A DNA stretch of 47,461 nt from the NCBI RefSeq assembly GCF_003946885.1, contig NZ_RWKQ01000038.1, forward strand, positions 1 to 47,461, read 5' to 3'. The translations under genes were made by a program, and so were the position numbers. Below the pieces are notes generated by a model. It saw only the letters and a program-made list of their open reading frames with translations, ran no database searches and was not told where the DNA came from. Shown piece by piece: positions 26,323-42,628 of this stretch (within the stretch, counting starts at the first letter, position 1; the number at the start of each line of letters is the position of its first letter). Origin of the DNA: Specibacter cremeus (lineage in GTDB: Bacteria; Actinomycetota; Actinomycetes; Actinomycetales; Micrococcaceae).

Positions 26323-26343
26323 TTTACAATATGACATTTTAGT
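26323..26343. promoter_or_regulatory. GntR-type operator candidate, site B
   Basis: On the minus strand the core reads ATGTCATAT, an imperfect match to the site in front of the other hydroxyproline genes. The flanks are weaker (ACT and AAA). It lies 54 bases before the GntR start and overlaps the last base of the cyclodeaminase gene. Confidence 0.45.
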
Positions 26344-27307
26344 CGTTGCCGGGTTTGCCGCGGAGAAAAAGTTCCCGGCCGGACAATTCATAGGCCCGTC
26401 CCGCCACCACGAGGTCCTCCCACGACATGCCCACGCCCGTGTACAGCAGCGGCGCACCGTCCTCGGGCGTGAACCGGCCGTTGACCAGGTCGGCGAGCGT
26501 CGCCAGCCCGCGCTCGCGCCACTGGTCCACGGAGCGTGCCGGGATCAGGTCGCCTGCCTCGCGCAGCGCGGATTCGCGGCCCTCGACGACCACGTCGGCG
26601 CGGCGGGCGAACCCGGGATCGATCTCCCGCGCGTCGAGCCCGTGCGAGCCGATGGCCGCCACGATCGCGTCGTCGCGGACCAGCGCGCCGTCGAACACCG
26701 GCTCGCCGGAGGACGTGGCGCAGACGACGACGTCGGCACCGGTCACGTCGCCCGGCCCACCGACGCGGGCCGCCAGTCCGCGGGCGGCCCAGCGGGCGGC
26801 GAACTCGGCGGCCGCCGCCGGCCGGCGGCCGATGACGATGAGGTCCTCGATGCCGCACACCTCGCTGATGGCCGCCACGTGACGCTCGGCCTGCAGGGAC
26901 GTGCCGAACACGGCCAGCGTGCCGGCGTCGGGCCGGCCGCGCACGGCCAGCAGGTGCTTGAGCGCCAGCGTGGTCACGGCCGGGGTGCGGATCAACGTCA
27001 GCTCGGCCCCGTCCATCGCGGCCAGCGGCGTGAGTGTGTCCCCGTCGAACAGCAGATAGGTGCCCTGGATCTTGGGGTGGCCCTTGGCGGGGTTGCCGGG
27101 GGCGACCGTGGCGACCTTGATGCCGGCGTACCGGGCCGATTGCGCCGGCATGAGCAGGAATTCCCCCGCGGTGAGCGGGCTGAACAGGCGGGGCGGGTCG
27201 AGCTCCGGGTCGAGGCCGCCGCGCAGGGCGTCGTGCAGCGCCTGGACGGCGGCTCGCGGGGACAGCAGCGTGTTGAGGGCTTCCGCGTCGAGGTAGGGCA
27301 GGCTCAT
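26339..27307 (-). CDS. Ornithine cyclodeaminase / mu-crystallin family imine reductase
   Basis: NAD(P)-binding protein of 322 aa of the OCD/mu-crystallin family, whose members include delta-1-pyrroline-2-carboxylate reductases. Cofactor region LAVFGTSLQAERHVAAI and the VIGRRP end of the next strand are visible, with ADVVVCATSSGEPVF downstream. Following the aconitase-X genes, it fits a reductase that turns the imine from cis-3-hydroxyproline into L-proline. That substrate is inferred from context. It overlaps the AcnX small-subunit stop by four bases and is the last gene of the 30973-to-26339 operon. Confidence 0.88.
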   Translation of the reverse strand: MSLPYLDAEALNTLLSPRAAVQALHDALRGGLDPELDPPRLFSPLTAGEFLLMPAQSARYAGIKVATVAPGNPAKGHPKIQGTYLLFDGDTLTPLAAMDGAELTLIRTPAVTTLALKHLLAVRGRPDAGTLAVFGTSLQAERHVAAISEVCGIEDLIVIGRRPAAAAEFAARWAARGLAARVGGPGDVTGADVVVCATSSGEPVFDGALVRDDAIVAAIGSHGLDAREIDPGFARRADVVVEGRESALREAGDLIPARSVDQWRERGLATLADLVNGRFTPEDGAPLLYTGVGMSWEDLVVAGRAYELSGRELFLRGKPGND

Positions 27308-27786: not shown

Positions 27787-29041
27787 CGCGGATCACCTCC
27801 CCCGCGCACGCGGAGGCCACGCATTCGCCCAGTGTCCCGAACACGACGTCGACGCCGAGGTTCGCCGGCGCATACCAGGCCCACTTGCCCGACGGCGTCA
27901 TGACGGTGCGCGTGTCCGGGGCCAGGATGGGCGTGATGTAGGTGCACGTGTCGACCACGATCCGGGCGCCGCGCGCCTCGGCCACCTGGACGAAGCCGGC
28001 GTCGCGGGCCCGGGCCAGCACCTCACGGGAGGTGGAGATCCACACCGTGCAGTCCGGGTGGAACGCCGGCGCGTCGGCCAGCGCCTGGGCCAGTTTCTCG
28101 AACTCGGGCAGCGAGAAGTGCGGCGTGCCCAACGCGACGGCGTCGAGCGCGCGGGCACCGGCCGCCGTCGTCAATTCATCGCGGGCGGCGCGCAGCATCG
28201 CGGCGGTGACACGCTCCACCGGCAGCGACTCCGGCGCGGCCGGCGCGTCGGCGAGTGCCTCGGGCGTCACGCCGGCCACGTGGAACAGCGCGACCCCGCC
28301 GGCGGAGGCGGCCGTGGCGCCGAGCGCCTTGAGCTTGTCCTCGTCCACCAGGTCCGGGTCGATCCCGGTCAGCAGCGGGACGCCCGTGCCGGAGCGCCGG
28401 CCCACGACGTCGCCCAGGGCCGCCCAGGCGGCGTCGTGGGCCAGCAGGCTCGCGGACAGCCCCGAGCAGTCCAGCTCGAGGGTGGGCACCCGGTTGGCCG
28501 GCAGGTGCAGCCCGGCCTCGGGCACGCGGCCGGTGATGGCCGCGCAGATGTCGATGAAGTCGCCGTAGCGTTCGGTGCGCGCGCCCAGCACGGAGTTGGC
28601 GAACACGATCGCGTTCGACTCGGCCCAGGCGATGTGCTCGCCGGCGCCCGGGCGCTGCACGGACTGGTACGGCGCACAGGTCCAGGTGGGCTTCGCGCCG
28701 AGCGCCGTGTAGGCGTCCATGAGCGCGCGGGCGGGCACGGCCTCGGTGGGCGGCAGCCGGACCAGGCCCGGGTGCATCAGGTCCAGCGAACTGACGTTCA
28801 GCGTGGTGGGCACGGCCACCGTGGCGCCCAGGTCAACGAGCTTCCGCGCGAAGTCCAGGCCGGCGCGGCCGTGGTACAGGCAGCCGTCGATGTGCGCCCC
28901 GGTGATGGGGATGAGCCGGGTCGCGCCGAGCACGCCGGCCAGCCCCGTGACCAGCCGCATGGCCATGGCCGTCCCGGCGCCGCGCGTGCCGGCGAGCATG
29001 GCGCTCTCCTCGCCGGTGAGCGCCAGCGCCGGGGTGTTCAC
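27767..29041 (-). CDS. Aconitase X catalytic subunit (likely cis-3-hydroxy-L-proline dehydratase)
   Basis: Catalytic subunit of 424 aa of the AcnX (DUF521) family. Type-II AcnX enzymes of bacteria are known to dehydrate cis-3-hydroxy-L-proline. Seen here are GAHIDGCLYHG, a TCAPYQ segment, SNAIVFANSVLGARTERYGD and a late VVDTCTYITPI region that supplies a cluster cysteine. Separate large and small subunits, as here, are the bacterial arrangement. The neighbours (epimerase, imine reductase) support the hydroxyproline role over mevalonate AcnX. Its start overlaps the epimerase stop (ATGA-like, four bases). Confidence 0.9.
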   Translation of the reverse strand: MNTPALALTGEESAMLAGTRGAGTAMAMRLVTGLAGVLGATRLIPITGAHIDGCLYHGRAGLDFARKLVDLGATVAVPTTLNVSSLDLMHPGLVRLPPTEAVPARALMDAYTALGAKPTWTCAPYQSVQRPGAGEHIAWAESNAIVFANSVLGARTERYGDFIDICAAITGRVPEAGLHLPANRVPTLELDCSGLSASLLAHDAAWAALGDVVGRRSGTGVPLLTGIDPDLVDEDKLKALGATAASAGGVALFHVAGVTPEALADAPAAPESLPVERVTAAMLRAARDELTTAAGARALDAVALGTPHFSLPEFEKLAQALADAPAFHPDCTVWISTSREVLARARDAGFVQVAEARGARIVVDTCTYITPILAPDTRTVMTPSGKWAWYAPANLGVDVVFGTLGECVASACAGEVIRDDTHWS

Positions 29042-30039
29042 AGCAGGAACCCGGCCGGGAACGGGTCGTCCGGGTCCAGGTGGTACTGGGCGGTGCCGGT
29101 CACCCAGGCGCGCCCGGTGATGGTCGGTACGACGGCGGGCAGCCCGCCGACGGTGGTTTCCTCGACCAGCCGGCCGATGAACTGGGTGCCGATGTAGGAC
29201 TCATTGACGAAGTCGGTGTCCAGTGCCAGTTCGCCGCGGGCGTGCAGTTGGGCCATGCGGGCGCTGGTGCCGGTGCCGCACGGGGAGCGGTCGAACCAGC
29301 CGGGGTGGATGGCCATGGCGTGGCGGGAATGCTGTGCCGTGGAACCGGGCGCTTTCAGGTAGACGTGGTGGCAGCCGGTGATGTCCGCCCGTTCCGGGTG
29401 CACGGGCAGGTTTTGGGCGTTGATGGCGTCCATGATCCTCAGCCCGGCATCCAGCAGCCGGTCCTTCGCGGCCCGCTCGAACGGCAGGCCCAGGTCCTCC
29501 AGCGCCACGATCGCGTAGAAGTTGCCACCGAATGCCATGTCGTACCCGACGTCGCCGAACCCGTCGACCCGGACTGTCTGGTCCAGGGCCAGCGCGAACG
29601 ACGGCACGTTGCGGATGGTGACGGACTTTGCCGCCCCGTCCCGCACGGCGACGTCGGCCACCACCAGCCCGGCCGGGGTGTCCAGCCGGATGGTGGTGAC
29701 GGGTTCGCGGACCTCCACCATGCCGGTCTCCACCAGCACGGTGGCCACGCCGATGGTGCCGTGCCCGCACATGGGCAGCAGCCCGGAGACCTCGATGAAC
29801 AGCACGCCGTAGTCGGCGTCCGGCCGGGTGGGCGGTTGCAGGATGGCCCCGCTCATGGACGCGTGCCCGCGTGGTTCGTACATGAGCAGCGTGCGCACGT
29901 CGTCGCTGTTGTCTATGAACCACTGGCGCCGCTCGGCCATGGTGGCCCCGGGAATCGTCCCGACGCCGCCGGTGATCACCCGGGTGGGCATCCCCTCGGT
30001 ATGGGACTCGACGGCATGAAACACACGCTTGGAGCGCAT
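29038..30039 (-). CDS. 4-hydroxyproline 2-epimerase (proline racemase family)
   Basis: Cofactor-free epimerase of 333 aa that converts trans-4-hydroxy-L-proline to the cis-4-hydroxy-D form. The two catalytic cysteines are Cys91 in PMCGHGTIG and Cys254 in DRSPCGTGTSA. The N-terminal AVESHTEGMPTRVI is typical. With Cys at both sites, an epimerase or racemase, not a dehydratase, is expected. It overlaps the AcnX start and follows the DapA-like gene by about 28 bases. Confidence 0.92.
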   Translation of the reverse strand: MRSKRVFHAVESHTEGMPTRVITGGVGTIPGATMAERRQWFIDNSDDVRTLLMYEPRGHASMSGAILQPPTRPDADYGVLFIEVSGLLPMCGHGTIGVATVLVETGMVEVREPVTTIRLDTPAGLVVADVAVRDGAAKSVTIRNVPSFALALDQTVRVDGFGDVGYDMAFGGNFYAIVALEDLGLPFERAAKDRLLDAGLRIMDAINAQNLPVHPERADITGCHHVYLKAPGSTAQHSRHAMAIHPGWFDRSPCGTGTSARMAQLHARGELALDTDFVNESYIGTQFIGRLVEETTVGGLPAVVPTITGRAWVTGTAQYHLDPDDPFPAGFLL

Positions 30040-30067: not shown

Positions 30068-30973
30068 TTACTTGTAGCCCTTGGCGAGCACGGCCTCGGT
30101 GTCGGCCTTGATGCGCGCGGTCAGCTCCTCGGGCAGCGGCAGGCGCGGCTGGCGGCAGGCGCCGCCCTTGCGCCCGGCGAGGTCCATGGACAGCTTGATG
30201 GACTGCACGAACTCCGTCTTGGAGTCCCAGCGCAGCAGCGGGTGCAGGTCGCGGTAGATCGGCAGCGCCGTGGCGATGTCCTCGGCCTTGCCGCTGGTGG
30301 CCAGCTCGTACAGTGCCACGGTGCTTTGCGGGATGGCGTTCGGGTAGCCGGCGATCCAGCCGACGGCGCCGGCCAGGCCGAGCTCCAGGAGCACGTCGTC
30401 GGAGCCGATGAGGAGGTCAAGTCCCGGGGCCAGTTCGGCGATTTCGTAGGCGCGGCGCACATCGCCGGTGAATTCCTTCACGGCCACGATCAGGCCCTCG
30501 TTGTAGAGGCGGGCCAGCAGGGCCGGGCTGAGGTCAACCTTGGTGTCGTACGGGTTGTTGTAGGCGACGACGGGCAGCCCGGCCTTGGCGACCTCGCGGT
30601 AGTGGGCCACCACCGTCTCGTCGTCGGCCTTGAACGTGTTCGGCGGCAGCGCCAGCACCGACGCGGCGCCGGCGGCCTTGGCCTGCTCGGCCCAGCGGCG
30701 GGCCTCGTCGGCACCGTACGCCGCGACGCCGGGCATGACGGTGAAGCCCTCGGGCGAGGCGGCGACGGCCACCTCGACGACCTTGGCGCGCTCCTCGTCG
30801 GTGAGCGTCTGGTACTCGCCAAGGGAACCGTTCGGGCACACGCCGTCGCAGCCGTTGGCGGCCAGCCAGGCCACGTGCTCGGCGAACGCGTCGTAGTCAA
30901 CGGTCAGGTCGTTGTTGAACGGCAGGGCGGTGGCGACGTGGACGCCGCGCCACGGCTGAGTGCGAGTGGTCAT
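30068..30973 (-). CDS. DapA-family deaminase (delta-1-pyrroline-4-hydroxy-2-carboxylate deaminase)
   Basis: TIM-barrel Schiff-base enzyme of 301 aa. The catalytic lysine is Lys166 in VAVKEFTGD and the conserved tyrosine is Tyr138 in VAYNNPYDT. The GSLGEYQTLT loop replaces the GTTGE of true dihydrodipicolinate synthase. In this setting it fits the deaminase that converts the cyclic imine from D-hydroxyproline to 2-oxoglutarate semialdehyde and ammonia. It is the first gene of the five-gene operon and is preceded by operator-like site C. Confidence 0.9.
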   Translation of the reverse strand: MTTRTQPWRGVHVATALPFNNDLTVDYDAFAEHVAWLAANGCDGVCPNGSLGEYQTLTDEERAKVVEVAVAASPEGFTVMPGVAAYGADEARRWAEQAKAAGAASVLALPPNTFKADDETVVAHYREVAKAGLPVVAYNNPYDTKVDLSPALLARLYNEGLIVAVKEFTGDVRRAYEIAELAPGLDLLIGSDDVLLELGLAGAVGWIAGYPNAIPQSTVALYELATSGKAEDIATALPIYRDLHPLLRWDSKTEFVQSIKLSMDLAGRKGGACRQPRLPLPEELTARIKADTEAVLAKGYK

Positions 30974-31033: not shown

Positions 31034-31054
31034 AGTGCAATGTCACATGTTACT
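31034..31054. promoter_or_regulatory. GntR-type operator candidate, site C
   Basis: 21-bp site with core ATGTCACAT and flanks AGT and ACT at three-base spacing, 61 to 81 bases before the DapA-like gene. The left half GTGCAATGTCACA is identical to that of site D. Confidence 0.6.
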
Positions 31055-31093: not shown

Positions 31094-32557
31094 TCACCGG
31101 GACGCCATCCAGCGCTCCACGCCGGCCGCATCGATGGGCAACGCGTCGGAGAGCACCTCGGAGCCGGTGGGCGTGACCAGGATGTCGTCCTCCAGTCGCA
31201 CGCCGATGCCGCGCAGCTCCGGCGGCACCATGAGATCGTGTTCGTGGAAGTACAGGCCCGGCTCCACGGTCAGCACCATGCCGGCGGCCATCTGGGCCCC
31301 TTGGTAATGCTCATAGTGCGACTTCGCGCAGTCGTGCACGTCCAGGCCCAGGTGGTGGCCGATCCCGCACACGAGGAACCGGCGGTGGTGCTGTCCCTGC
31401 GGGGACAGCGCCTCGTCCACGGAGACCGGCAGCAGGCCCCAGTCGTGCAGCCCGGTGGCGATGACCTCCATGGCGGCTTGGTGGAAGTCGGTGAACGCGC
31501 GCCCGGGAGCGACGGCCGCCAGGCCGGCCCGGTGCGCCTTCTCGACGAGGTCGTGGACCTGGCGCTGGACCGGGGAGAACGTGCCCGACGCCGGAAACGT
31601 GCGCGTGACGTCGGCCGTGTAAAAGCTGTTCGTCTCCACGCCCATGTCGAGCAGCAGCAGCTCGTCGGCCAGCACGGGCCCGTCGCAGCGCACCCAGTGC
31701 AGCGTGGGCGCGTGCTTGCCGCTGCCGACGATCGTCGCGTAGCCCACACCGTTGCCGTGGCTGCGCGCGTGCCGGTCGAACGTGCCCTGCAGCCACCGCT
31801 CCCCCGGCCCGGCGATGGCGGTGGGGATCTCGCGGACGACGGCGGCGAAGCCCGCCACGGTGTGGTCCACGGCCTCGCGCAGCTGGGCGATCTCCCAGTC
31901 GTCCTTGATCATGCGCAGCGTCGACAGGGCGCTGGCCAACCCGCCGTCGGCGGCCAGCGCGTGCCGGCGGACAAGCTCGGCGTCGGGCCTGCCGGCGACC
32001 AGCGCGGGACCTCCGGCCGCGCGCGCGGCGTTCGTCACGCCGTCGTCCAAGCCGGCCAGCGGCTTGACCGCCAGGCCCAGCGCGCCGGCCCAGTCGTCGA
32101 AGCCTGGGGCCGAGCCCACCCACAGTTCGCCGTGGGCGGCGTCGGCGAAGAACGCCGGCTCGCCCGGGTAGGCCGGGGCGGGGATGTACAGGACGGCGTC
32201 GTGCCCGCCGGACGCCGGGGTCATGACGAGCACGGCACCCTCGATCGCGGCGCCGGTCAGCCAGTAGAAGTCCGAGTCGGGGCGGAAGTCGTAGTAGGTG
32301 TCGTTGGCGCGCACGGGCGCGGTGCCGGCGCCGATGACCAGCACCTGGCCGGCGAAGTCCGCCGACAGCCTCGCGCGGTGCGCGGCCGCGGCCGCGGCGG
32401 CACCGGCGACGACCGGCGGGGTCCGGTCCGGGATGCCCCAGCCCTGCCCCATGAACTCGTTGAACGCCGGCAGCTGGGCCAGCCGGGGCAGCCGTGGGTC
32501 AGGGTTCGCCGGCGCCGGCATGGACGGGGTGGCGGGCGTGAACGTTGTCTCAGTCAT
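31094..32557 (-). CDS. Xaa-Pro aminopeptidase (M24 family)
   Basis: Aminopeptidase P-type metallopeptidase of 487 aa that removes an N-terminal residue in front of proline or hydroxyproline. An N-terminal AMP_N domain (about 35-215) is followed by the pita-bread domain. Metal ligands fit Asp304 (LLLDMGVETN), Asp316 (ADVTRTF), a histidine in GHHLGLDVHD, Glu432 (VEPGLYF) and Glu456 (RLEDDIL). No signal peptide, so it acts in the cytoplasm on imported peptides. The ATG at 32557 overlaps the iminopeptidase stop by eight bases. Confidence 0.92.
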   Translation of the reverse strand: MTETTFTPATPSMPAPANPDPRLPRLAQLPAFNEFMGQGWGIPDRTPPVVAGAAAAAAAHRARLSADFAGQVLVIGAGTAPVRANDTYYDFRPDSDFYWLTGAAIEGAVLVMTPASGGHDAVLYIPAPAYPGEPAFFADAAHGELWVGSAPGFDDWAGALGLAVKPLAGLDDGVTNAARAAGGPALVAGRPDAELVRRHALAADGGLASALSTLRMIKDDWEIAQLREAVDHTVAGFAAVVREIPTAIAGPGERWLQGTFDRHARSHGNGVGYATIVGSGKHAPTLHWVRCDGPVLADELLLLDMGVETNSFYTADVTRTFPASGTFSPVQRQVHDLVEKAHRAGLAAVAPGRAFTDFHQAAMEVIATGLHDWGLLPVSVDEALSPQGQHHRRFLVCGIGHHLGLDVHDCAKSHYEHYQGAQMAAGMVLTVEPGLYFHEHDLMVPPELRGIGVRLEDDILVTPTGSEVLSDALPIDAAGVERWMASR

Positions 32558-33848
32558 TGGTTTTTCCTCCGCCCAATTGGGCAATCGTGTTGTGCAGGCG
32601 GGCGAACACCTTGTCATCGCCGATGCCGTCGTGCTCGTATTCGTTGGTGACCCAGGCGTGGGCGTTGCCGACGGCGGCCGCCGTGTCCAGTTGCAGCCCC
32701 GCGTCGACGTACATGTCGTCGTAGTAGACGGCGGCGGCCAGCGGCACGTCGTTGGCGGCCAGCCTGTCCGTGTCGTACAGGGGGCTGGCGGTGCCGCGGC
32801 GGGCCAGTTCATGGACGGCGCCGGCGAACGGGCGCAGCCCGCGGATCTCCTCGAACATCCACGGGAACATCATCTCCCCGGTGAACAGCAGCGGCCGGGC
32901 CGTCTCGGCGAACTGCGGGTGGTTGGCGCGCTCGGCCTGGGCCGCCCAGGCCGTGGGCCCGTTGTCGCCGTGGGCGTAGATGCTCTCCTGCAGCGCGGCG
33001 AACAGCGGATTGTCCGCGAAGGAGCTGCGGGCCAGCACCTGGGCCAGGAACGTGTCGGTGGGCTCGTCGCCGGTCTCGTCGAAGGCCTCGTCGAGCAGCC
33101 AGTGCATCCGCTCAAAGCCCGGCTTCATGCCGAAGTCGATGCCGAGCGTCTGCAGCCGGCGCACGGTGAGGGTGTCGCCGTCGGGCAGCAGCACGTCCCC
33201 GGCGGCGAGCCGGTCCGCCAGCCGGCCAACCAGGTCGACGTCGGCCGGGTACCGGTCGTAGTACAGCTTGTTCTTGCCCTCGGTGCGAGGGAACGTGCGG
33301 CGGTACACCTCGGCCGCCTCGGGGCGGATGCTGGCCAGCCCACCGGTCACATAGCAGGCGGACAGCCCCTCCGGCGCCCGGGACAGGTACGTCAGGGTCA
33401 GGAACCCGCCGTAGCTTTGGCCCAGCGTGGACCAGCGGCGCCCGCCGTACAGGGTCTTGCGCAGGTGCTCGGCGTCGGCCACGATCGAGTCGGCCCGGAA
33501 GTGGGACAGGTAGTCGGCCCCGGCGGCCGCGTCGAAGCGGGAGATCGCGCGGGCGTCGACGCGCGTGCTGCGCCCGGTGCCGCGCTGGTCCAGCAATAGC
33601 ACCCGGTACGTTTTCAGCGCCTGGCCGACCCAGCCGTCCGGGCCCACCGGGCGCGGGCCCTTGCCTCCCGGACCGCCCTGCAGGAAGACGAGCACCGGCA
33701 GGTCCTCGCCGCGCCGCGCCGGGTCCACGAGTTCCCGGGCGAACACGGAAATGGTCTCCGGGTTCGCGTCGTCGAACCAGTCCAGCGGCACCGTGACCCG
33801 GTGGTCGGTCACCGCCATCCCGGGAATGATGTATTGGCTCACAATCAC
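32550..33848 (-). CDS. Prolyl iminopeptidase-like alpha/beta hydrolase
   Basis: Serine peptidase of 432 aa (S33 type) that releases N-terminal proline, and by extension hydroxyproline, from peptides. LQGGPGG (57-63) forms the oxyanion region, DQRGTGRS (87-94) is diagnostic, and the nucleophile is Ser145 in GQSYGG. Acid and histidine come late, near NAHAWVTNEYEHDG. The GTG start overlaps the ATPase stop (GTGA). It lacks a signal peptide. Confidence 0.9.
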   Translation of the reverse strand: MIVSQYIIPGMAVTDHRVTVPLDWFDDANPETISVFARELVDPARRGEDLPVLVFLQGGPGGKGPRPVGPDGWVGQALKTYRVLLLDQRGTGRSTRVDARAISRFDAAAGADYLSHFRADSIVADAEHLRKTLYGGRRWSTLGQSYGGFLTLTYLSRAPEGLSACYVTGGLASIRPEAAEVYRRTFPRTEGKNKLYYDRYPADVDLVGRLADRLAAGDVLLPDGDTLTVRRLQTLGIDFGMKPGFERMHWLLDEAFDETGDEPTDTFLAQVLARSSFADNPLFAALQESIYAHGDNGPTAWAAQAERANHPQFAETARPLLFTGEMMFPWMFEEIRGLRPFAGAVHELARRGTASPLYDTDRLAANDVPLAAAVYYDDMYVDAGLQLDTAAAVGNAHAWVTNEYEHDGIGDDKVFARLHNTIAQLGGGKTND

Positions 33849-34702
33849 GTCAGTGCTGCCCTCTCTCGCTGTTCATTCACGCGCCGGCGCGCTTCCCACT
33901 CCGGATTGATGGTGGGGATGGCCGCCAACAAGGACCGAGTATATGGCTGTGTTGGGTTGTCGAAGATCTCGTCCCGGGTGCCCGATTCCACCACGGCGCC
34001 ACGGTTCATGACCACCACGTCGTGGGCGATCTGCCGGACCACCGCGAGGTCGTGCGCGATGAAGATGATCGAGTACCCGTCCTCGGCCTGCAGGCTCTTG
34101 AACAGGTTTATCACCTGCGCCTGAACGGAGACGTCGAGGGCTGACACGGCCTCATCGCAAATGAGCAGCTTCGGCTTGACGGCGAGCGCCCGGGCGATGC
34201 CGATGCGCTGCGCCTGGCCGCCGGAGAACTGGGACGGGTAGCGGCCGCTGTGGTCCGGGTTCAGTCCCACCCGTTCCATCAGCCCCTTGACGAGTTGCCG
34301 CTTGCCGCCCGGGACGCCCATGCCCTGGTAGTCCAGCGGTGCCGTGATGATGCGGTCCACGGTGTGCCGGGGGTTCAGCGAGGAGAACGGGTCTTGGAAC
34401 ACGACCTGCACCTGGCTGCGGAAGTGCTTGAGCGCCGCGCCGGTGCCGTGCGTGACATCCTCGCCGTCGAGCAGGACGCTGCCGCCGTCGGCGGGCATGA
34501 GCCGGGCCACCATGCGCGCGGTGGTCGACTTCCCGGACCCGGATTCGCCGACGACGGCGACGGTGCGGGCGCGCCCGACGGCGAAGCTGACGTCGTCCAC
34601 GGCCCGGAACGCGCGCTTCTTGCCCGACAGGACACCACCGGTGTTGGTGGTGAATTCCTTGACCAGGTTCCGGGCCTCGAGCAGCGGTTCGCCCGCGCTC
34701 AT
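33845..34702 (-). CDS. Peptide ABC transporter ATPase (OppF/DppF-like)
   Basis: ATP-binding subunit of 285 aa. Walker A is GESGSGKST, the signature is FSGGQAQR, and Walker B is LLICDEAVSAL. The C-terminal oligopeptide-ABC extension with THPYTRSLL-like PTQPYTRSLLAAIP is present. It overlaps both neighbours by four bases and would energise uptake together with the next ATPase. Confidence 0.94.
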   Translation of the reverse strand: MSAGEPLLEARNLVKEFTTNTGGVLSGKKRAFRAVDDVSFAVGRARTVAVVGESGSGKSTTARMVARLMPADGGSVLLDGEDVTHGTGAALKHFRSQVQVVFQDPFSSLNPRHTVDRIITAPLDYQGMGVPGGKRQLVKGLMERVGLNPDHSGRYPSQFSGGQAQRIGIARALAVKPKLLICDEAVSALDVSVQAQVINLFKSLQAEDGYSIIFIAHDLAVVRQIAHDVVVMNRGAVVESGTRDEIFDNPTQPYTRSLLAAIPTINPEWEARRRVNEQRERAALT

Positions 34703-35571
34703 CGGGTGGCCCCCGTCCGGAAGTCGCCGACCATCTTGAGTTCCTCCAGGTCGTCGTCGAGGCGCGGGATGGCGGCCAGTAGCGCCCGCGTGTAGTCGTG
34801 TTGTGGGGCCGAGAAGATCTGCTCGGTGCTGCCGGCCTCCACCTGCACGCCGCCGTTCATCACCACCACGTCCTGCGCCACCTGGCTGACCACGGCCAGG
34901 TCGTGGGTGATGAAGATCATGCCGGTGCCCGTCTCGGCCTGCAGGTCGGCCATGAGTTCGAGGATCTGCGCCTGGACGGTGACGTCAAGGGCCGTGGTGG
35001 GTTCGTCGGCGATGACCAGGTCCGGCTCGCAGCACAGCGCAATCGCAATCATGATGCGCTGGCGCATGCCGCCGGAGAACTGGTGCGGGTAGTGGTCGAT
35101 CCGCAGGTGCGGGTCTTTGATGCGCACCCGGTCCAGGGCCTCGATCGCCACGGCCCGCGCGGCCTTGCGGCTGACGTTGTGGTGCGCCCGGTACGCCTCG
35201 GTGATCTGCAGGCCCACGGTGTAGTAGGGGTTCAGCGAGGACAGCGGGTCCTGGAAGACCATGGCCATGCTGTTGCCGCGCAACTTGCGCAGGGCGGCGT
35301 CGGACTTGCCCAGGATTTCCACGCCATCGAGCCGGATGCTGCCGGACGCAGTGGCACCCTTGGGCAGCAGCCCCATGACGGCCAGGCTGGTCATGGACTT
35401 GCCCGAGCCGGACTCCCCCACGATGCCCAGCGTCTGGCGCCGGTCCACCGTGAAGGACAGGTCCCTGACCACGTCCACGTCGCCGCGGGGCGTGCCGAAC
35501 GTGACGGTGAGCCCGCGCACCTCAAGCAGCGCACCGCCGTCGTCCCTTGCTTTCGACTCTGTTCGGTTCAT
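34699..35571 (-). CDS. Peptide ABC transporter ATPase (OppD/DppD-like)
   Basis: ATP-binding subunit of 290 aa. Walker [10 protein letters not shown], signature FSGGMRQR, Walker [12 protein letters not shown], and the C-terminal [14 protein letters not shown] segment are visible. The start at 35571 overlaps the permease stop (ATGA); the long upstream extension of the frame is only a shadow of the permease. Confidence 0.94.
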
Positions 35572-36563
35572 CAGGATTTCACCCTCACTCGCGGGTCGAG
35601 CACCGCGTACAACAGGTCGACGACGACGTTCGCCACGACCACGAAGAAGGCGGCCATCAGGGTCACGGCCATGATGACCGGCTGGTCGTTCTTGCCGATC
35701 GAATCGGCGGCCAGCTTGCCGACACCGTTGAGGCCGAACACCGTCTCGGTGATCAGCGCCCCGCCGAGCAGCCCGGCGAAGTCCATGCCGAACAGCGTCA
35801 CGATGGGCGTCAGGGACGGGCGCAGGGCGTGCCGGCGCAGGACCAGCAAACTCGGCAGGCCCTTGGCTCGGGCCGTGCGCATGAAGTTCTCGCCCAGCGT
35901 GTCCAGCACATTCGCCCGGGTCAGCCGGGCGTACATGGACGCGTAGCCGAACGCGAGTACCGTCCACGGCATGATGTAGGACTGGAACCAGAAGAGCGGG
36001 TCCTCGCCGAAGTCCGGCGTGGACGGGAACGGCAGGACCTGCAGCTGGACCACCAGTACGTACTGCAGCACCAGGGCGATGAAGTAGTTGGGCAGCGAGA
36101 TGCCGCCCAGGGCGAACATCATGGCGCCCTTGTCCCACCAGGTGCCCGCCTTGATGGCGCTGACCAGACCCGCGGAGATGCCTATCAACAACCACAGCAC
36201 GGCGGCGCCTACGGCCACGGTGACGCTGACCGGGAGCCGGGCGGTGATCATGTCCACCACGGACTGGTTGGTCTGGAAGCTGAAGCCCAGGCACGGGGCG
36301 GCGCAGTGGATGGCGGCGGCACCCTCACCGTAGGTCCGGCCGGCGAAGATCCCGGACAGGAACTGCCAGAACTGGGCCAGGAAGGGCTGGTTCACGCCCA
36401 GCTGTTCGCGGATCTGGTCGATCCGTGCCGGGTTGCACGTCTTGCCGCAGATCATCACGGCCGGGTCCGGGGAGAGCAGGAAGAAGATGCAGAACGTCAG
36501 GAAGCTGACAAGGAACAGGATGACGGCGACGCCGAGCAGCCGCCGGAGAATGTAGCCGGGCAT
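35571..36563 (-). CDS. Peptide ABC transporter permease (DppB-like)
   Basis: Permease of 330 aa with six predicted helices. It opens with GYILRRLLGVAVILFLVS, and the EAA-type loop reads around RAKGLPSLLVLRRHALRPSL. A large early loop carries CGKTCNPARIDQIREQLGVNQP, common in DppB. It is coupled to the DppC and ATPase genes by one- to four-base overlaps. Confidence 0.93.
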   Translation of the reverse strand: MPGYILRRLLGVAVILFLVSFLTFCIFFLLSPDPAVMICGKTCNPARIDQIREQLGVNQPFLAQFWQFLSGIFAGRTYGEGAAAIHCAAPCLGFSFQTNQSVVDMITARLPVSVTVAVGAAVLWLLIGISAGLVSAIKAGTWWDKGAMMFALGGISLPNYFIALVLQYVLVVQLQVLPFPSTPDFGEDPLFWFQSYIMPWTVLAFGYASMYARLTRANVLDTLGENFMRTARAKGLPSLLVLRRHALRPSLTPIVTLFGMDFAGLLGGALITETVFGLNGVGKLAADSIGKNDQPVIMAVTLMAAFFVVVANVVVDLLYAVLDPRVRVKS

Positions 36564-37522
36564 CAGCGCGCCTCACCGGTGTCAATGGCCTTGCTCAGGT
36601 GATCCCCGAACACGGTGAACGAGAGCACCGTGAGGAACAGGAACAGGCCGGGTACGAAGAAATACATGGGATCGGTGGCGTACCAGGGCACGGCCGAGGC
36701 GATCATCTGGCCCCACGAGGCCGTGGGCGGGGTGACGCCGACGCCCAGGAAAGACAGCCCCGCCTCCGTGCCGATGTAGCCGGGCACCGACAGCGTGGCC
36801 ATGACGATGATGGTGCCGGTCAGGTTGGGCAGCACCTCGCGGAACACGATGCGCACCCTGGAGGCCCCTGACGCGTAGGCGGCCTCGACGAACTCACGGT
36901 TCTTGAGGGACATCGTTTGGCCGCGCACCACGCGGGCCATGTACGGCCAGCCGAAGACGCTCAACACCACGACCAGCAGGAACGGACGGTTCCCGGCCGG
37001 CAGTGCGGAGAGCAGGGCGATCATGAAGATCAGTGACGGGAAGGCCATGAGGAAATCCATCAGGCGTGAGATCACCTGGTCCACCCAGCCACCGTAGAAC
37101 CCGGCCAGCGTGCCCAGGACGACGCCGATGAAGGTGGTCAGCAGCGTGGCGCTGACGGAGATCAGCAAGGAGACCTGGGCGCCGAAGGCGATGCGGGCAA
37201 AAATGTCGCGCCCGCTTTGCGGCTCCACCCCGAACCAGTGGGTGGGGCCGATGCCGCCGAGCGGGCCGTTGGGAATGCCGCCCAGGTCCGCGTTGACTGC
37301 GGAGGGGTCGTATTCGTACGGTCCCCAGCCGGAGAGGTGCGTCAGCAGGGGCGCGGCGATCGCCATGATCGTGATCAGGGCGATGAAGCCGGCGCTGAAC
37401 AGCACCGCCGGTGATTTCCGCATGGTTCGGATGACGCGGCGGGCCGAGGAAGGGCCGCCGCCAGAGAACGGCGACCCCTTTTCCTCGGTCTCGACGGCCA
37501 ATTGTGTTGGCATCGTGGTCAT
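36563..37522 (-). CDS. Peptide ABC transporter permease (DppC-like)
   Basis: Permease of 319 aa. The N-terminal tail is cytoplasmic, followed by a first helix, a large loop with HWFGVEPQSGRDIFARIAFG (typical HPFGTDxxGRD-like pattern), and five more helices. The EAA loop reads ASGASRVRIVFREVLPN. It follows the binding-protein stop by eight bases. Confidence 0.93.
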   Translation of the reverse strand: MTTMPTQLAVETEEKGSPFSGGGPSSARRVIRTMRKSPAVLFSAGFIALITIMAIAAPLLTHLSGWGPYEYDPSAVNADLGGIPNGPLGGIGPTHWFGVEPQSGRDIFARIAFGAQVSLLISVSATLLTTFIGVVLGTLAGFYGGWVDQVISRLMDFLMAFPSLIFMIALLSALPAGNRPFLLVVVLSVFGWPYMARVVRGQTMSLKNREFVEAAYASGASRVRIVFREVLPNLTGTIIVMATLSVPGYIGTEAGLSFLGVGVTPPTASWGQMIASAVPWYATDPMYFFVPGLFLFLTVLSFTVFGDHLSKAIDTGEAR

Positions 37523-37530
37523 GTGGGGAA

Positions 37531-39216
37531 CTACTTGGCCGCGTTGGCCAGTCCGACGGTGACAAGGTCGACGCCGCCGTTGAAACCGATAACGCTCTTG
37601 CCGATGTTGCTACCGGTCAGCTGCAGGCCGTTTTGGTAGACCAGCGGGACCAAGGGGGCGAGCTTCATAATCTGTTCGTCCAAGTCGCCGTACGCCTTGT
37701 TGGCGGCGTCGACGTCAGTCATGGCGGCGATGGTGGCCATCTGCTTGTTGACGGCCGGGTCGTTGAGCTGGGCCAGGTTGGAGTTGCCCTTGTCGGTGAT
37801 GTTTTTGCCCTCGAGAATTGGCGGCAGGAACGTGGCTCCCGAGGCCCAGTCCGGGCACCAACCCGTGATGGCGGCGTCATGTTGCTGCGAGCGGGTGCCG
37901 ATGACCTCGTAGAACGTGGACGAGTCGATGACGTTCAGCTTCACGGTGATGCCGATCTTGGCCAGCGACTGCTGGATGGCCTGGGACTGTGCCTGGATCA
38001 TCGGCGTCCCGCGCGTATCCAGGGTCATGTCGAAGCCGTTGGACAGACCGGCCTCCGCCAAGAGGGCCTTGGCCTTTTCAATGTCGCCCTTGTTGCCGGT
38101 GCTCGGGTACAGGTCGAAGTCCTTGCGGCCCAGCAGCGACGGCACCATGATGGTGTTCGCGATCGTGGCCAGCTGGCTGCCGCCGCTGGCGGTCTGCACG
38201 GAGGACTTGTCGATGGCGTAGTTGATGGCCTGGCGGACCCGGACGTCGGACATGTGCGGCTTGGTGGTGTTCATGCCCATGTACGTGGTGCAGATGGCCG
38301 TGGTCTTCACGGCCCGGTCCTGGATCTGCGGGGTCTGCACGCGGGAGACGTTGGCCGGTTGCAGCGAGCCGCCGGAGATGGCGTCCTTGTCGCCGGACTG
38401 GTCGGCCAGCATGCGCTCGTCGATCGTGGCCCCGTCCAGGCCGAACGTGAAATCAAGGTTGTCCGGGTAGGCCTTGCGGACGGTGTCAGTAGCGGCGCTC
38501 CAGTTCGTGTTCCTGGCGAGCTTCAGCTCGCTGCCCCGGTTGTAGCTGACCACCTTGTACGGGCCGGAGGCGATCGGCTTGGCGTCGAAGGCGGTCCCGG
38601 CGCCACTGCCCACGGGGAACGGCACAAAGGAGTTCTGCCCCACCACGGAGCCGAAGTCGGCGAACGGCTGGTTCAGGTGGAAGACGATCGTCTTGTCGTC
38701 GGGTGTCTGGATCGGGGCAAAGTCCTTGCCCTTGTCCGCGTACGGGCCCTTGTAGCCGGACCCGTCATCGAGCAGCGTGCGGGCGTACGGGGAGCCGATG
38801 CCCAGGGCCGGGTCGAAGGAACGCTCAACACCGAACTTCACGTCCTTGCTGGTGATGGGCGTGCCGTCCTCGAACTTCACGCCGTCCTTGAGCGTGAACG
38901 TCCACGTCTTGCCGCCGTCGGAGGATTTCCCCATGTCGGTGGCGAGGTCGGGCACCATCTCGGAGGTTTTGCCGGCCACCGTGGAGTTGGTGGTGAGCGT
39001 GCGATAGATCAGGCGGTAGAAGTTGTTCACGCCGCCGTCAAAGCCCATGGCCGGGTCCAGGTGGGAGTAGTCGGCGTTCAGCAGGACGCTGACGGTGCCG
39101 CCCTTCTGCGGTTCACCGGTTTTGGCGCCGGCGCCGACCTTGGCCCCGCCGCCACAGGCGGTGAGTGCAAGCGACGCGGACAGCACCACGCCAAGAACAA
39201 TGTGTTTCGTCTTCAT
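37531..39216 (-). CDS. Peptide ABC transporter substrate-binding lipoprotein
   Basis: Extracytoplasmic solute-binding protein of 561 aa (SBP family 5). The signal peptide ends in the lipobox LTAC, so it is lipid-anchored. The domain begins at KGGTVSVLLNADYSHLDPA and has the KTWTFTLKDGVKFEDG signature and the DVRVRQAINYAID block. Of three candidate starts, the ATG at 39216 is favoured because GAAAG lies about ten bases upstream. A GTG at 39246 would add ten residues. It follows the GH127 gene, so the captured ligand may be glycosylated Hyp peptides; that is inference. Confidence 0.92.
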   Translation of the reverse strand: MKTKHIVLGVVLSASLALTACGGGAKVGAGAKTGEPQKGGTVSVLLNADYSHLDPAMGFDGGVNNFYRLIYRTLTTNSTVAGKTSEMVPDLATDMGKSSDGGKTWTFTLKDGVKFEDGTPITSKDVKFGVERSFDPALGIGSPYARTLLDDGSGYKGPYADKGKDFAPIQTPDDKTIVFHLNQPFADFGSVVGQNSFVPFPVGSGAGTAFDAKPIASGPYKVVSYNRGSELKLARNTNWSAATDTVRKAYPDNLDFTFGLDGATIDERMLADQSGDKDAISGGSLQPANVSRVQTPQIQDRAVKTTAICTTYMGMNTTKPHMSDVRVRQAINYAIDKSSVQTASGGSQLATIANTIMVPSLLGRKDFDLYPSTGNKGDIEKAKALLAEAGLSNGFDMTLDTRGTPMIQAQSQAIQQSLAKIGITVKLNVIDSSTFYEVIGTRSQQHDAAITGWCPDWASGATFLPPILEGKNITDKGNSNLAQLNDPAVNKQMATIAAMTDVDAANKAYGDLDEQIMKLAPLVPLVYQNGLQLTGSNIGKSVIGFNGGVDLVTVGLANAAK

Positions 39217-39267
39217 CTGCATTCGCTTTCGTTGCTGGAACTTCACGGATCTGGCGGGAAATTCGGT

Positions 39268-41211
39268 TTAGGCCGTGCGCAGCCACACGCGCATGGTTTC
39301 GGCCCGGCGGTTGCCCCACAGGAAGTAGGGCACAAGCGTTGCCGTTTGGGCCTCGGTCACCTCCCGGACGGTCTCGGTCCACAGCGGGTACAGCTCGGCG
39401 GCCGGTGCGGCGGCCGCGCGCACCGGCAGGGAGAGGACGACGACGTCGCCCGTCCCGGGCACGATGCCCCGGGTTTGTTCGTGGGCCAGCGCCGGCGCCC
39501 CGGGCTCGAGGATGAGGTCGTCGACGCCGGCGGCGTTGTCCTGCTGCTCGGCACAGTAGACCAGCGGGCCGCGGGCGATTGCGACGCTGCCGCGCGTCGC
39601 ATCCAGGTGCGGATGAGAGATGTGAGCGCGCACAACCATGGGCAGCACCAGATCGACCGTGTCGCCTGCCTGCCAGATCCGGCGCAGTTCCGCCCAGCCC
39701 GGTGCGGCGCGTACGGCCGGGGCGCCGTTGATGCTGACCGTGGCCCCGGCCGCCCAGGCCGGGACACGGAAGGCCAGCGTGAACTCCTCGTGCGGGGCGT
39801 CGCGGACCACGGCGCGCACGTTTCCGTCCCACGGGTAATCGGCCCGCAGGTCCACGGCGAACGGTCCGGCCGTAATGGACGCCGCCGCGTAGTTGGCGAC
39901 GTGCAGCGAGTCGGCGGTTGTGGCGGCGACGTAGTCCTGCAGTTCGGACATCCAGCGGATCACGTTCGGCGGGCAGCACGGGCAGCCGAACCAGGACCGG
40001 CGCAGCGCCTCGCCCCCGGTCTCGGCCCCGCTGCGCTGTTCGTGGTCGGGGCGGCGCTGCAGCGGGTTGTCGTAGAAGAACTTCGTGCCATCCACCGAGA
40101 GGCCGACGGCGTAGGCGTTGTAGAGGACGTTCTCGAACACGTCCACGTATTTGGCCTCGCCGGTGGCCAGGAACATGCGCCAACCCCACTGCATGATGGA
40201 GATGGCCGCGCACGTTTCGCTGTAGGAGCGGTCGGACGGCAGCTCGAAGCGGTCGCCGATGGCCTCGTCCGAGTGCCGGCTTCCGAGCCCGCCGGTGATG
40301 TAGAGCTTGCTGGCCACCATGTCGTCCCACAGCCGAACGAGTGCGGCGAGCAGGCCGGCGTCGTTGGTTTCCACGGCGACGTCGGTGGCACCGGCGGCCA
40401 GGTAGCCCATCCGCACGGCGTGTCCGGTCACGGACGGCAGCTCGCGCAGCGGCTGGCCGTCCTGGAAGTACTCCGCCGGGAACAGGGTCAACGCGACCAG
40501 GCCCCGGCCGCGGCGGTCCACGAACAGTTTCGCCAGCGTCAGGTGGTCCCGGTTGCCGGTTTCGCGGTACAGCTCCACGAGCGCCATCTCGACTTCGGGG
40601 TGTCCGCACACCTGGTCGCGGCCGGCGGGGCCGAATTCGCGGTAGGCGTTGTCGGCGAACGCGCTCGCGACCTTGAGGAGACGGTCGTCGCCGAGCTGGC
40701 GGTTGGCGGCGACGGCGGCCTGGATGAGGTGGCCCAGGTTGTACAGCTCGTGGCCCCAGGACAGGTCGCTCCAGGCGTCCTTCCCGTTGCGCATGTTCTG
40801 GTAGTACGAGTTCAGGTAACCGTCGCCGGCCTGGGCGGCGGCGATGAGTTCGACCGATTCCTCGTAGAATGCCCGGACCTCGGGTTGCTCGCCGCGGGCC
40901 AGCTCATAGGCCAGGCCCTCGAGGGTCTTGTAGATGTCGGTGTCGAGGAACGGGTAGCGGCCCCGGTACTCCTCGTCGGTGCCGTCTCTTGCGATGCGGA
41001 AGTTCTCCAGGTTGCCGGCCCCGCGCAGTTCGGTGAGCGAATGCGGGATGGTGGCCGTCCGGTTGCGCTCCTGCCAGCGGGCCAGCAGGCCGCCGGTCAG
41101 CCGGACGTCCGAGGCGCCGAGGGACCGCAGCGCGCCGGCCCCCGGGACGACGGCGTTGGCGCGAAGCGCGGAACCGTGCGGCTGGTGGACGGTGGTGTTC
41201 CCAGAAGTCAT
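39268..41211 (-). CDS. GH127 beta-L-arabinofuranosidase (DUF1680)
   Basis: Glycoside hydrolase of 647 aa. GH127 enzymes such as HypBA1 of Bifidobacterium longum remove beta-L-arabinofuranose from hydroxyproline-linked arabino-oligosaccharides. The zinc/cysteine active site is fully present: Glu316, Glu332 and Cys334 in SETCAAIS, and Cys410, Cys412 and Cys413 in FGCPCCPPNVIRW. GHPEVEMALVELYRETG (203-219) is another signature. No signal peptide is seen, so it acts inside the cell. The ATG at 41211 or a GTG at 41223 could start it. It is first in the operon leading into the peptide transporter. Operator-like site D lies just upstream. Confidence 0.92.
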   Translation of the reverse strand: MTSGNTTVHQPHGSALRANAVVPGAGALRSLGASDVRLTGGLLARWQERNRTATIPHSLTELRGAGNLENFRIARDGTDEEYRGRYPFLDTDIYKTLEGLAYELARGEQPEVRAFYEESVELIAAAQAGDGYLNSYYQNMRNGKDAWSDLSWGHELYNLGHLIQAAVAANRQLGDDRLLKVASAFADNAYREFGPAGRDQVCGHPEVEMALVELYRETGNRDHLTLAKLFVDRRGRGLVALTLFPAEYFQDGQPLRELPSVTGHAVRMGYLAAGATDVAVETNDAGLLAALVRLWDDMVASKLYITGGLGSRHSDEAIGDRFELPSDRSYSETCAAISIMQWGWRMFLATGEAKYVDVFENVLYNAYAVGLSVDGTKFFYDNPLQRRPDHEQRSGAETGGEALRRSWFGCPCCPPNVIRWMSELQDYVAATTADSLHVANYAAASITAGPFAVDLRADYPWDGNVRAVVRDAPHEEFTLAFRVPAWAAGATVSINGAPAVRAAPGWAELRRIWQAGDTVDLVLPMVVRAHISHPHLDATRGSVAIARGPLVYCAEQQDNAAGVDDLILEPGAPALAHEQTRGIVPGTGDVVVLSLPVRAAAAPAAELYPLWTETVREVTEAQTATLVPYFLWGNRRAETMRVWLRTA

Positions 41212-41230: not shown

Positions 41231-41251
41231 TGTACGGTGTGACATTGCACA
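41231..41251. promoter_or_regulatory. GntR-type operator candidate, site D
   Basis: On the minus strand TGT and ACA flanks surround the core ATGTCACAC. GTGCAATGTCACA is shared exactly with site C. It lies about 20 bases before the GH127 ATG, and 8 before the alternative GTG, in promoter position for the whole arabinosidase-transporter-peptidase operon. Confidence 0.6.
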
Positions 41252-41328
41252 GAAGTTTATGGCACATTCGCCCCCGGCACAAGGGGTTCGTGTTGCCTGC
41301 GCCACTCCCGCCCCCGCCTCCCCAACTG

Positions 41329-41409: not shown

Positions 41410-42429
41410 TCAGCGCAGGACGAAGCCCAGGCCCAGTTCGTCACCGGGGTCGAGGGAGAACGTGCACTCCCCCACCGGGTAAGCGGTGCCCACCACATCG
41501 ACCACCATGCCGTCGGGGCCGCGTTCGGCCACCCGGGCCGTGAAGTGCGAGTCGATGATGGAGAAGTGGTCCAGCACGGCGCCGTCGGCCAGCACGCCGG
41601 CGTCGTCCAGGGCGGCCACCCGGGCCGCGGTGCCGGAGCCGCAGGGCGACCTGTCCACCTGGCCGTCGGCAAAGATGGTCACGTTGCGCTGCGCCAACGC
41701 GCCGTCCATTCCGGGGCGCGCTTCGACGTCCTCGTGGAAGATGGTGCCGTAGATGCCGTCCAGCCGGGGCTCGCTCGGGTGCCTGGCCGCCGGGTGCCCG
41801 GCCAGCGCGGCCTTCACCTGCCGGCCGGCGGCGATCAGCGCGTTCAGGTCCGCAACGTCCACGCGCAGGCCCACGGAGGCGGCCGGCACGGAGGCGTACA
41901 GCGCCCCGCCCCACAGCACGTCCACCACCAGCTCACCGAAGGACGGCGTGGAAACCGGAACGGACCGGGCGGTCACGTACGAGGGCACGTTCCGGAACGT
42001 GACCGCTGAGACCTCCCCGGCCGTCGTCATCACCCTGGCCGTCACCCGGCCCGACGGGACGTCGATCACCACGTCCGTCACGCCGTCGTCTGGGGCCCGC
42101 ACCAGGCCGCTGCGCACCGCCCACGCGCCCAGCGCGATGGTGCCATGCCCGCACGCCGAGGAGAAGCCGTCCTTGTGCCAGAACAGCACGCCGAAATGGG
42201 CGCCGGGATCGTCCGGGGGAACGATGAACCCGCCGTACATGTCGGCGTGCCCGCGCGGTTCGTTCACGAGCAGCCGGCGCAACACGTCGGCGTCCCCGCC
42301 CGGCGCGCGCGTGCGCCGCTCCAGCACCGTGTCCCCCGGGATCTCCACCGGTGGCGCCGGCACGATCCGGAACGGCTCGCCGGCCGTGTGGTAATCGACC
42401 GTGTGCACGGTCCAGTCAGCAACACCCAT
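41410..42429 (-). CDS. Proline racemase family protein (hydroxyproline dehydratase- or epimerase-like)
   Basis: Enzyme of 339 aa. The N-terminal TVDYHTAGEPFRIV and LLVNEPRGHADMYGGFIV resemble trans-3-hydroxy-L-proline dehydratases, but both catalytic positions are cysteine: Cys93 in SACGHGTIAL and Cys263 in DRSPCGSGTAAR. Known dehydratases carry threonine at the second site, so a racemase or epimerase reaction remains possible. It is a single-gene unit with operator-like site E 179 bases upstream. Its start codon abuts the stop of a 21-codon frame (TAAATG). Confidence 0.85.
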   Translation of the reverse strand: MGVADWTVHTVDYHTAGEPFRIVPAPPVEIPGDTVLERRTRAPGGDADVLRRLLVNEPRGHADMYGGFIVPPDDPGAHFGVLFWHKDGFSSACGHGTIALGAWAVRSGLVRAPDDGVTDVVIDVPSGRVTARVMTTAGEVSAVTFRNVPSYVTARSVPVSTPSFGELVVDVLWGGALYASVPAASVGLRVDVADLNALIAAGRQVKAALAGHPAARHPSEPRLDGIYGTIFHEDVEARPGMDGALAQRNVTIFADGQVDRSPCGSGTAARVAALDDAGVLADGAVLDHFSIIDSHFTARVAERGPDGMVVDVVGTAYPVGECTFSLDPGDELGLGFVLR

Positions 42430-42607: not shown

Positions 42608-42628
42608 AGTAAAATATGACATATCACC
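42608..42628. promoter_or_regulatory. GntR-type operator candidate, site E
   Basis: On the minus strand the core ATGTCATAT is flanked by GGT and ACT at three-base spacing. It lies upstream of the mini-ORF and racemase-family gene. The central TGATATGTCATAT part is almost palindromic. Confidence 0.5.

Follow-up and report, generated by a model that had tools for sequence, protein, structure and literature searches.

A HypR-linked gene cassette of Specibacter cremeus as a candidate route for arabinosylated hydroxyproline peptides

Why should the gene of a GH127 arabinosidase stand directly before those of a peptide importer, two peptidases and a hydroxyproline (Hyp) pathway? In plants, arabinosylated Hyp characterises extensins and a number of signalling peptides. 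The arrangement occurs in Specibacter cremeus, on a stretch of 47,461 nucleotides (C32:1-47461, from an actinobacterial genome of 4.3 Mb in 98 contigs; hereafter the window), where a minus-strand run from 42429 to 19911 encodes a racemase-family enzyme, GH127, the importer, the peptidases and then the Hyp pathway. A preliminary description of the sequence had proposed a candidate route in which arabinosylated Hyp peptides are imported whole and freed of their sugar inside the cell, and most of our comparative tests back this idea: the synteny of a GH127 clade, an operator of the Hyp regulator HypR, the adjoining Hyp genes, an arabinose operon in a related locus (G441) and the place of the cassette between two genes that adjoin in congeners. 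With moderate confidence we regard the locus as a HypR-controlled cassette for the use of arabinosylated Hyp peptides of plant origin. This reading draws on gene content, conserved linkage, the clade, the operator match and the congener comparison, from which we infer every substrate as well as transport in the glycosylated form.

The linkage of the genes is conserved well beyond the window. A pattern scan of a genome collection, restricted to close relatives, returned 15 clade loci (58-64% identity) from Nonomuraea (nine), Streptomyces (two), Kribbella, Agromyces, Microbacterium and Planctomonas; a search of 58 relatives added G055, giving 17 loci with the window, and a screen of 295 genomes from the same family as the window added G531 and G441, both from one other genus and found after the pattern had been set, for a total of 19. 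The neighbourhood comparison that had been suggested for related actinobacteria bears the order out: the genes for GH127, the binding protein, permeases C and B and two ATPases are colinear in 19/19 loci from at least eight genera. An S33 peptidase gene, an M24 peptidase gene or both follow this six-gene core in each of the first 17 loci; over all 19, S33 is found in 16, M24 in 16 and one or both in 18, the stretches read showing M24 in neither G531 nor G441 and S33 in G531 alone. Hyp-catabolic genes lie within the fetched stretch of 14 loci. In a tree of 40 rows the 19 GH127 proteins form one clade (support 100/100), marked by the motifs SRHSDEA (19/19) and DHxQRxGAE (17/19), both absent from the 21 other rows. 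Two Bacteroidota loci (32-34% identity) fall outside the clade, of which L036 served as an outsider in the trees and L038, on a short contig, was left out, as were fragment matches in G020. Twenty further GH127 loci from actinobacteria, with identities of 50% or less, served as controls and were read with no more than 9 kb on each side (L078, L093 and L096 span under 13 kb); 0/20 contained an S33, M24 or Hyp epimerase gene.

The second line of evidence is the operator. In Streptomyces coelicolor HypR is a repressor, L-Hyp induces its targets in vivo without an effect of Hyp on DNA binding by HypR in vitro, and deletion of SCO6293 abolishes growth on Hyp (PMC6608401). The site TACAATGTCAC has been footprinted and TGCAATGTCAC confirmed by gel shift at SCO6289 and SCO5911/5912 (Kotowska et al. 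2019, PMC6608401), the logo being CTNTGC(A/C)ATGTCAC (PMC6608401). The site before GH127 agrees with this logo throughout (Table 1), and the deaminase promoter, CAGTGCAATGTCAC, departs from it at one position. A longer GTG frame of GH127, from 41250, crosses the operator. The preliminary description had spoken of one operator set, and TRTGACAT does occur five times in the window (0.9 expected; 0/100 shuffles reach five), each time before a cluster unit; as this motif derives from the window sequence, it is the match to the published box that constitutes the independent test. That Hyp catabolism falls under the same operators holds in so far as operator-like sites are concerned, with the amendment that most Hyp genes lie outside 31094-41211, the gene set running on to 19911, in separate units with sites of their own. 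Throughout the 4.3 Mb genome TGCAATGTCAC occurs four times (the GH127 promoter, the deaminase promoter, window position 11451 and contig C45) and the variant TGCCATGTCAC twice, while the TGCAATGTCAC pattern read backwards is absent from the whole genome. The exact 11-mer at 11451-11461 (plus strand) lies at a distance from the cluster, within a GMC-oxidoreductase-like gene.

Allowing at most one mismatch within 320 bp 5' of GH127, the box was found in 11 of the first 17 clade loci (the window, Kribbella and the nine Nonomuraea) and in both later ones (one mismatch in G531, none in G441), hence in 13/19, compared with 0/20 control GH127 loci and 41/4000 random windows, the latter sampled from the fetched loci and the window, cassette loci included. 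G531 and G441 also carry a box, with one mismatch each, 5' of the deaminase gene, and Agromyces and G055 share TAATATGTCAC, which has three mismatches and keeps the core. A GntR/FCD regulator encoded within the cluster is probably HypR, and the units of S. cremeus would then be under its repression. HypR control was rejected for the two Streptomyces loci (L029/L031), in which the GH127 unit diverges from dehydrogenase-deaminase-epimerase genes in the order of SCO6289-6293: no box is present, and in L029 the intergenic region from which the GH127 unit and the D-Hyp dehydrogenase operon diverge holds an XRE-cupin regulator gene (L029:9246-9917, minus strand).

The congeners show how the locus is arranged where GH127 is lacking. 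Seven of them have the S33 gene (77-83% identity) and a GH127 match in 0/7 cases. A Hyp cluster is present in six of the seven stretches, the seventh (L062, G004) showing only M24 and S33. In 6/7 a racemase gene directly precedes S33, and it is exactly between these two genes that the window carries its six-gene cassette. Beyond the racemase gene, away from S33, G002, G003, G012, G013 and G016 encode a five-gene LIV-type amino-acid importer (76-99% identical to that of G013; confirmed by Pfam for G013 and G016), a position occupied by an MMPL protein in G006; no match to this importer was found on the window contig, to which the search was confined. A second locus of G013, L072, combines an Opp-type importer (30-53%), S33, a GntR/FCD regulator, racemase genes and one-mismatch HypR boxes with no GH127 match. 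This suggests a recurrent association of peptide importers with Hyp genes. The cassette itself is rare (3/295 genomes of the family; 2/296 in a phylum sample with identity of at least 60%), which fits the horizontal spread by which it was probably distributed.

The Hyp genes that adjoin the cassette comprise the gene families of a whole pathway. Hyp epimerase, D-Hyp dehydrogenase, Delta1-pyrroline-4-hydroxy-2-carboxylate deaminase and alpha-ketoglutaric semialdehyde dehydrogenase are all present by family, their NCBIfam equivalog cut-offs being missed, and Hyp would flow through these cluster enzymes to 2-oxoglutarate. Two other assignments were tried and discarded. The second proline-racemase-family enzyme has trans-3-Hyp dehydratase as its best NCBIfam match, under the cut-off. 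In such dehydratases the second catalytic cysteine is replaced; since the window enzyme keeps both, it is of the racemase/epimerase rather than the dehydratase type. A role of the DHDPS-family gene as an arabinose-pathway dehydratase was ruled out by context, the sequence alone not being decisive and a PDB search unhelpful, because the gene adjoins the Hyp epimerase both in the window and in 6/7 congeners without GH127 and because the genome has its AraA and AraB genes at another place. A split aconitase X (27304-29041, minus strand) and a pyrroline-2-carboxylate reductase-like gene (26339..27307) are also present, and the cluster probably handles cis-3-hydroxyproline as well. The run of Hyp genes is interrupted after the GntR gene, ahead of those for D-Hyp dehydrogenase, by a RES-domain gene and a weak HEPN-like neighbour (24319-25472, minus strand), possibly a toxin-antitoxin insertion, and a Phd/YefM antitoxin-family gene (19374-19655, minus strand) marks the downstream edge.

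Table 1. Genes and HypR-type sites of the cluster in the window
Feature	Coordinates	Strand	Remark
Second proline-racemase-family enzyme	41410..42429	-	Both catalytic Cys present
GH127, predicted cytoplasmic beta-L-arabinofuranosidase	39268..41211	-	Start ATG 41211
SBP_bac_5 lipoprotein, peptide-type binding protein	37531..39246	-	Pfam; invariant G-W-C-P-D-W
OppC-type permease	36563..37522	-	Pfam/NCBIfam scans
OppB-type permease	35571..36563	-	Pfam/NCBIfam scans
Opp-type ATPase 1	34699..35541	-	Start not fixed; open frame reaches 36294
Opp-type ATPase 2	33845..34702	-	Pfam/NCBIfam scans
S33 prolyl-aminopeptidase-like enzyme	32550..33848	-	Family match
M24 aminopeptidase P (Xaa-Pro)	31094..32557	-	M24 with AMP_N
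DHDPS family, probable Delta1-pyrroline-4-hydroxy-2-carboxylate deaminase	30068..30973	-	Gene set as SCO6289-6293
4-Hydroxyproline 2-epimerase-like	29038..30039	-	Both catalytic Cys present
Aconitase X large subunit, cis-3-Hyp dehydratase-like	27767-29041	-	Family match
Aconitase X small subunit, cis-3-Hyp dehydratase-like	27304-27786	-	Family match
Delta1-pyrroline-2-carboxylate reductase-like	26339..27307	-	Family match
GntR/FCD regulator, probable HypR	25562..26314	-	Family match; start not fixed
D-Hyp dehydrogenase beta-like subunit (DAO family)	23106..24266	-	Family match
D-Hyp dehydrogenase gamma-like subunit (Fer2_4)	22847..23143	-	Family match
D-Hyp dehydrogenase alpha-like subunit (soxA/Fer2_BFD)	21378..22961	-	Family match
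Aldehyde dehydrogenase, probable alpha-ketoglutaric semialdehyde dehydrogenase	19911..21371	-	Best NCBIfam match 2,5-dioxovalerate dehydrogenase, far under cut-off
HypR operator before GH127, CTGTGCAATGTCAC	41239..41252	-	14/14 to S. coelicolor logo
HypR box TGCAATGTCAC before Hyp-catabolic unit	31036..31046	+	Same 11-mer as GH127 promoter
TATGACAT core before second proline-racemase-family gene	42615..42622	+	Motif scan
TATGACAT core before GntR gene	26330..26337	+	Motif scan
TGTGACAT core before D-Hyp dehydrogenase unit	24276..24283	-	Motif scan

The other product expected of such a cassette is arabinose. Besides the six-gene core, G531 and G441 both have genes for the deaminase, epimerase, reductase, a GntR regulator, D-Hyp dehydrogenase and an aldehyde dehydrogenase, and G441, one of these two later-found loci, has in addition an operon of lacI, araB, araD, araA and an aldose epimerase gene inside the cluster, divergent from GH127, with the HypR box between lacI and GH127. 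Its AraA and AraB exceed the NCBIfam cut-offs and AraD is identified by Pfam Aldolase_II. In the available stretches araA and araB occur in no other clade locus; in the window genome araA, araB, an aldose epimerase gene and lacI lie together on contig C22. Within L113:1281-18487 of G441 the ara operon is placed between the GH127 unit and the racemase gene, and there are two binding-protein genes. Just 5' of the deaminase gene, G531 (L110:6093-9004) and G441 (L113 from 18862) have a gene of the sodium:alanine symporter family, whose product is possibly a transporter of free Hyp, and in G531 an MFS gene is likewise found just 5' of the deaminase gene.

The GH127 protein has the domains and catalytic residues of its family. 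It matches the catalytic (PF07944, 305 bits), middle (PF20736) and C-terminal (PF20737) domains, all three over the curated cut-offs. The six residues named in the preliminary description (E316, E332, C334, C410, C412 and C413) are exact when numbered from the ATG at 41211, and they align with E322, E338, C340, C415, C417 and C418 of HypBA1 from Bifidobacterium longum, whose active-site roles have been described (PMC10728902). Its claim of a full zinc/cysteine active site stands as regards the residues and the Cys3-Glu zinc site, with C410 to be removed from the latter because the aligned C415 is described as a nonconserved extra cysteine (PMC10728902). The zinc site, the cysteine nucleophile and the glutamate acid/base are thus all present and invariant in 14/14 aligned rows, the acid/base included. 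The closest solved sequences are Geobacillus Ara127N (372 bits), BT3674 (6ex6; 351), HypBA1 (328) and BT1003 (5mqo; 295), and the nearest solved relatives are annotated as beta-L-arabinofuranosidases (EC 3.2.1.185). In the AlphaFold model (mean pLDDT 74.4) the active-site loops are uncertain (317-344 and 392-422 below 50), and Foldseek with this model confirmed the fold, adding nothing beyond that. The protein has no signal peptide, as had been stated: over its first 60 residues the mean hydropathy of a 12-residue segment peaks at 1.14, compared with 2.51 at the N-terminus of the binding protein, which also bears a lipobox-like LTACG. HypBA1 of B. longum is reported to act on Ara-Hyp through Ara3-Hyp (PMC6085000), and the window enzyme would be a cytoplasmic exo-beta-L-arabinofuranosidase that takes beta-L-arabinofuranose from Hyp.

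Downstream of GH127 the order had been read correctly, Pfam placing the peptide ABC importer, S33 and M24 between 41211 and 31094; for M24 the presence and type of the gene hold, and its start moves from 32812 to about 32557. The importer is complete as an Opp/Dpp type, with an SBP_bac_5 binding protein, two BPD_transp_1 permeases and two ABC_tran/oligo_HPY ATPases. The binding protein is closest to 2wok (284 bits), the peptide-binding OppA2 of the clavulanate cluster, and W-C-P-D is invariant in 14/14 of its aligned rows; by comparison of motifs rather than by alignment, W-C-x-D has the spacing of Trp416-Cys417-x-Asp419 in OppA, in which Asp419 binds the alpha-amino group of the ligand (PMC9967938). 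The structure model of the binding protein (pLDDT 51.5) was too poor for use. The S33 gene encodes an S33-type alpha/beta hydrolase, closest among solved sequences to Arabidopsis At3g61540 (342 bits) and short of the NCBIfam equivalog cut-offs, and M24 carries AMP_N. The importer may be pictured as a carrier of arabinosylated Hyp peptides.

Taken together, the parts suggest a sequence of events. The binding lipoprotein and the Opp-type importer would take in short peptides whose Hyp still bears beta-L-arabinofuranose; GH127, as a zinc/cysteine exo-beta-L-arabinofuranosidase of the cytoplasm, would strip the arabinose, which would enter AraBAD where this is present; M24 would cut Xaa-Pro/Hyp bonds and S33 would take N-terminal Pro or Hyp from the freed peptides. 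Free Hyp would then undergo epimerisation, oxidation by the three-subunit D-Hyp dehydrogenase and deamination, and a last oxidation would yield 2-oxoglutarate. HypR would hold the units repressed until Hyp or a Hyp metabolite appears.

A number of observations weigh against such a cassette for arabinosylated Hyp peptides. GH127 is only about 29-34% identical to characterised enzymes of its family; nine of the 19 clade loci come from a single genus, Nonomuraea; and DHxQRxGAE is missing from precisely the later members, G531 and G441. Six of the 19 loci have no HypR box within one mismatch 5' of GH127, and five (L022, L030, L032, L035 and L069/L070) show no Hyp-catabolic gene in their stretches, the named loci ending about 10 kb from GH127. 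The outside loci are not wholly devoid of similar genes, since matches to an Opp-like importer (27-45%) and a DHDPS-like gene (35%) turn up in the control L079, and an M24-like one at 25% in the Bacteroidales locus L036. Genome-level rates favour the cassette in the case of araA (17/19 clade genomes vs 21/296 in a phylum sample) and of a strong Pro_racemase match (17/17 vs 23/296), with the window genome and G055 counted in both phylum samples and no correction made for kinship or genome size. Two clade genomes lack araA, G067 and G531, the latter with a full Hyp cluster, and this counts against AraA as a constant requirement. Finally, S33 and M24 are also met where a Hyp cluster has neither GH127 nor Opp, so that they are no proof that the importer's cargo is peptides, and the stretch read for G441 contains neither of them.

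The last two points bear directly on a different account of the cargo, in which the importer takes up arabinosyl-Hyp, either as the free glycosylated amino acid or in very short conjugates, after its release outside the cell, the peptidases serving the general Hyp pathway. It gains from XeHypBA1 of Xanthomonas euvesicatoria, reported to prefer Ara-Hyp (PMC6085000), and it has to contend with peptidase genes after the importer in 18/19 loci and with a binding protein nearest to 2wok and OppA-like in its W-C-x-D, features with which an amino-acid conjugate would still be compatible; we hold this account to be unlikely, if worth keeping in mind. Family-5 binding proteins include some that bind sugars. 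A cargo of arabino-oligosaccharides could therefore be considered, with Hyp genes co-regulated for the reason that both products stem from one glycoprotein, and in B. longum an intracellular GH127 is indeed supplied by an importer specific for beta-Ara2 (PMC7263609). Against this stand the Opp type of the importer with its oligo_HPY ATPases, the Pro/Hyp peptidases that share the unit and the absence of a GH121-like partner among the scanned cluster genes, which together make a sugar cargo quite improbable. Least probable of all is a GH127 target other than Hyp arabinosides, such as a rhamnogalacturonan-II or arabinan side chain, with the linkage a case of hitch-hiking: the family covers several substrates and its sole NCBIfam match here is aceric acid hydrolase (NF049879; 400 bits, cut-off of 950 not reached), yet the linkage is held over at least eight genera, a HypR operator lies directly 5' of GH127 in 13/19 loci, and BT1003, which we take to be the aceric acid enzyme, matches worse than Ara127N, BT3674 and HypBA1.

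The use of arabinosylated Hyp peptides, as the preferred reading, can be set beside several known systems. The HypR regulon of S. coelicolor (SCO6289-6294; PMC6608401) shares the GntR/FadR regulator, the TGCAATGTCAC operator, the alpha, beta and gamma subunits of D-Hyp dehydrogenase, the deaminase and the Hyp epimerase; its target table differs in listing a collagenase, a multidrug-type ABC protein and a 2-oxoglutarate enzyme, and neither GH127 nor a peptide importer. HypAA/HypBA2/HypBA1 of B. longum (PMC7263609, PMC10850190) likewise bring an intracellular GH127 to bear on plant Hyp arabinosides with supply by an ABC importer, but there extracellular enzymes free beta-Ara2 and the importer takes the sugar only (PMC7263609), as opposed to the Opp-type importer and Hyp catabolism found here. 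Extracellular GH121/GH43 partners of the B. longum type were not found among the scanned window genes, to which the search was confined. X. euvesicatoria XeHypBA1/2/AA also remove Hyp arabinosides stepwise (PMC6085000), with a BA1 enzyme later classed as GH146 and, in the accessible parts of that account, no mention of a coupling to Hyp catabolism. For Latescibacteria (WS3) an in silico study proposed extensin as a target of GH127 in an organism that would also take up sugars and oligopeptides; there arabinose itself is imported after release, and the portions available describe no linked cluster of GH127, peptide importer and Hyp genes (PMC4454575). The Pseudomonas lhp and Sinorhizobium hyp clusters, as summarised in PMC6608401, have the same Hyp steps, the summary mentioning no arabinosidase. 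The coupling, which had been thought new, has no description in the literature searched, subscription journals and bioRxiv falling mostly outside it. The locus is in this sense a new combination of known parts, a HypR-type Hyp cluster to which genes for an arabinosidase and a peptide importer are joined.

In the bacterial systems that we found described the sugar is cut off outside the cell, and B. longum imports only the sugar. The chances are slightly better than even that Actinobacteria possess, by contrast, a dedicated and HypR-controlled import of intact beta-L-arabinosylated Hyp peptides, be they extensin fragments or possibly plant signalling peptides that are likewise arabinosylated, with de-arabinosylation moved to the cytoplasm and both arabinose and Hyp channelled from one locus. 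If this is true, uptake of the conjugate would point to a niche of these bacteria, functions could be assigned to a GH127 subfamily and to an Opp-type binding protein, and genes would be supplied with which the bacterial removal of plant glycopeptide signals may be tested.

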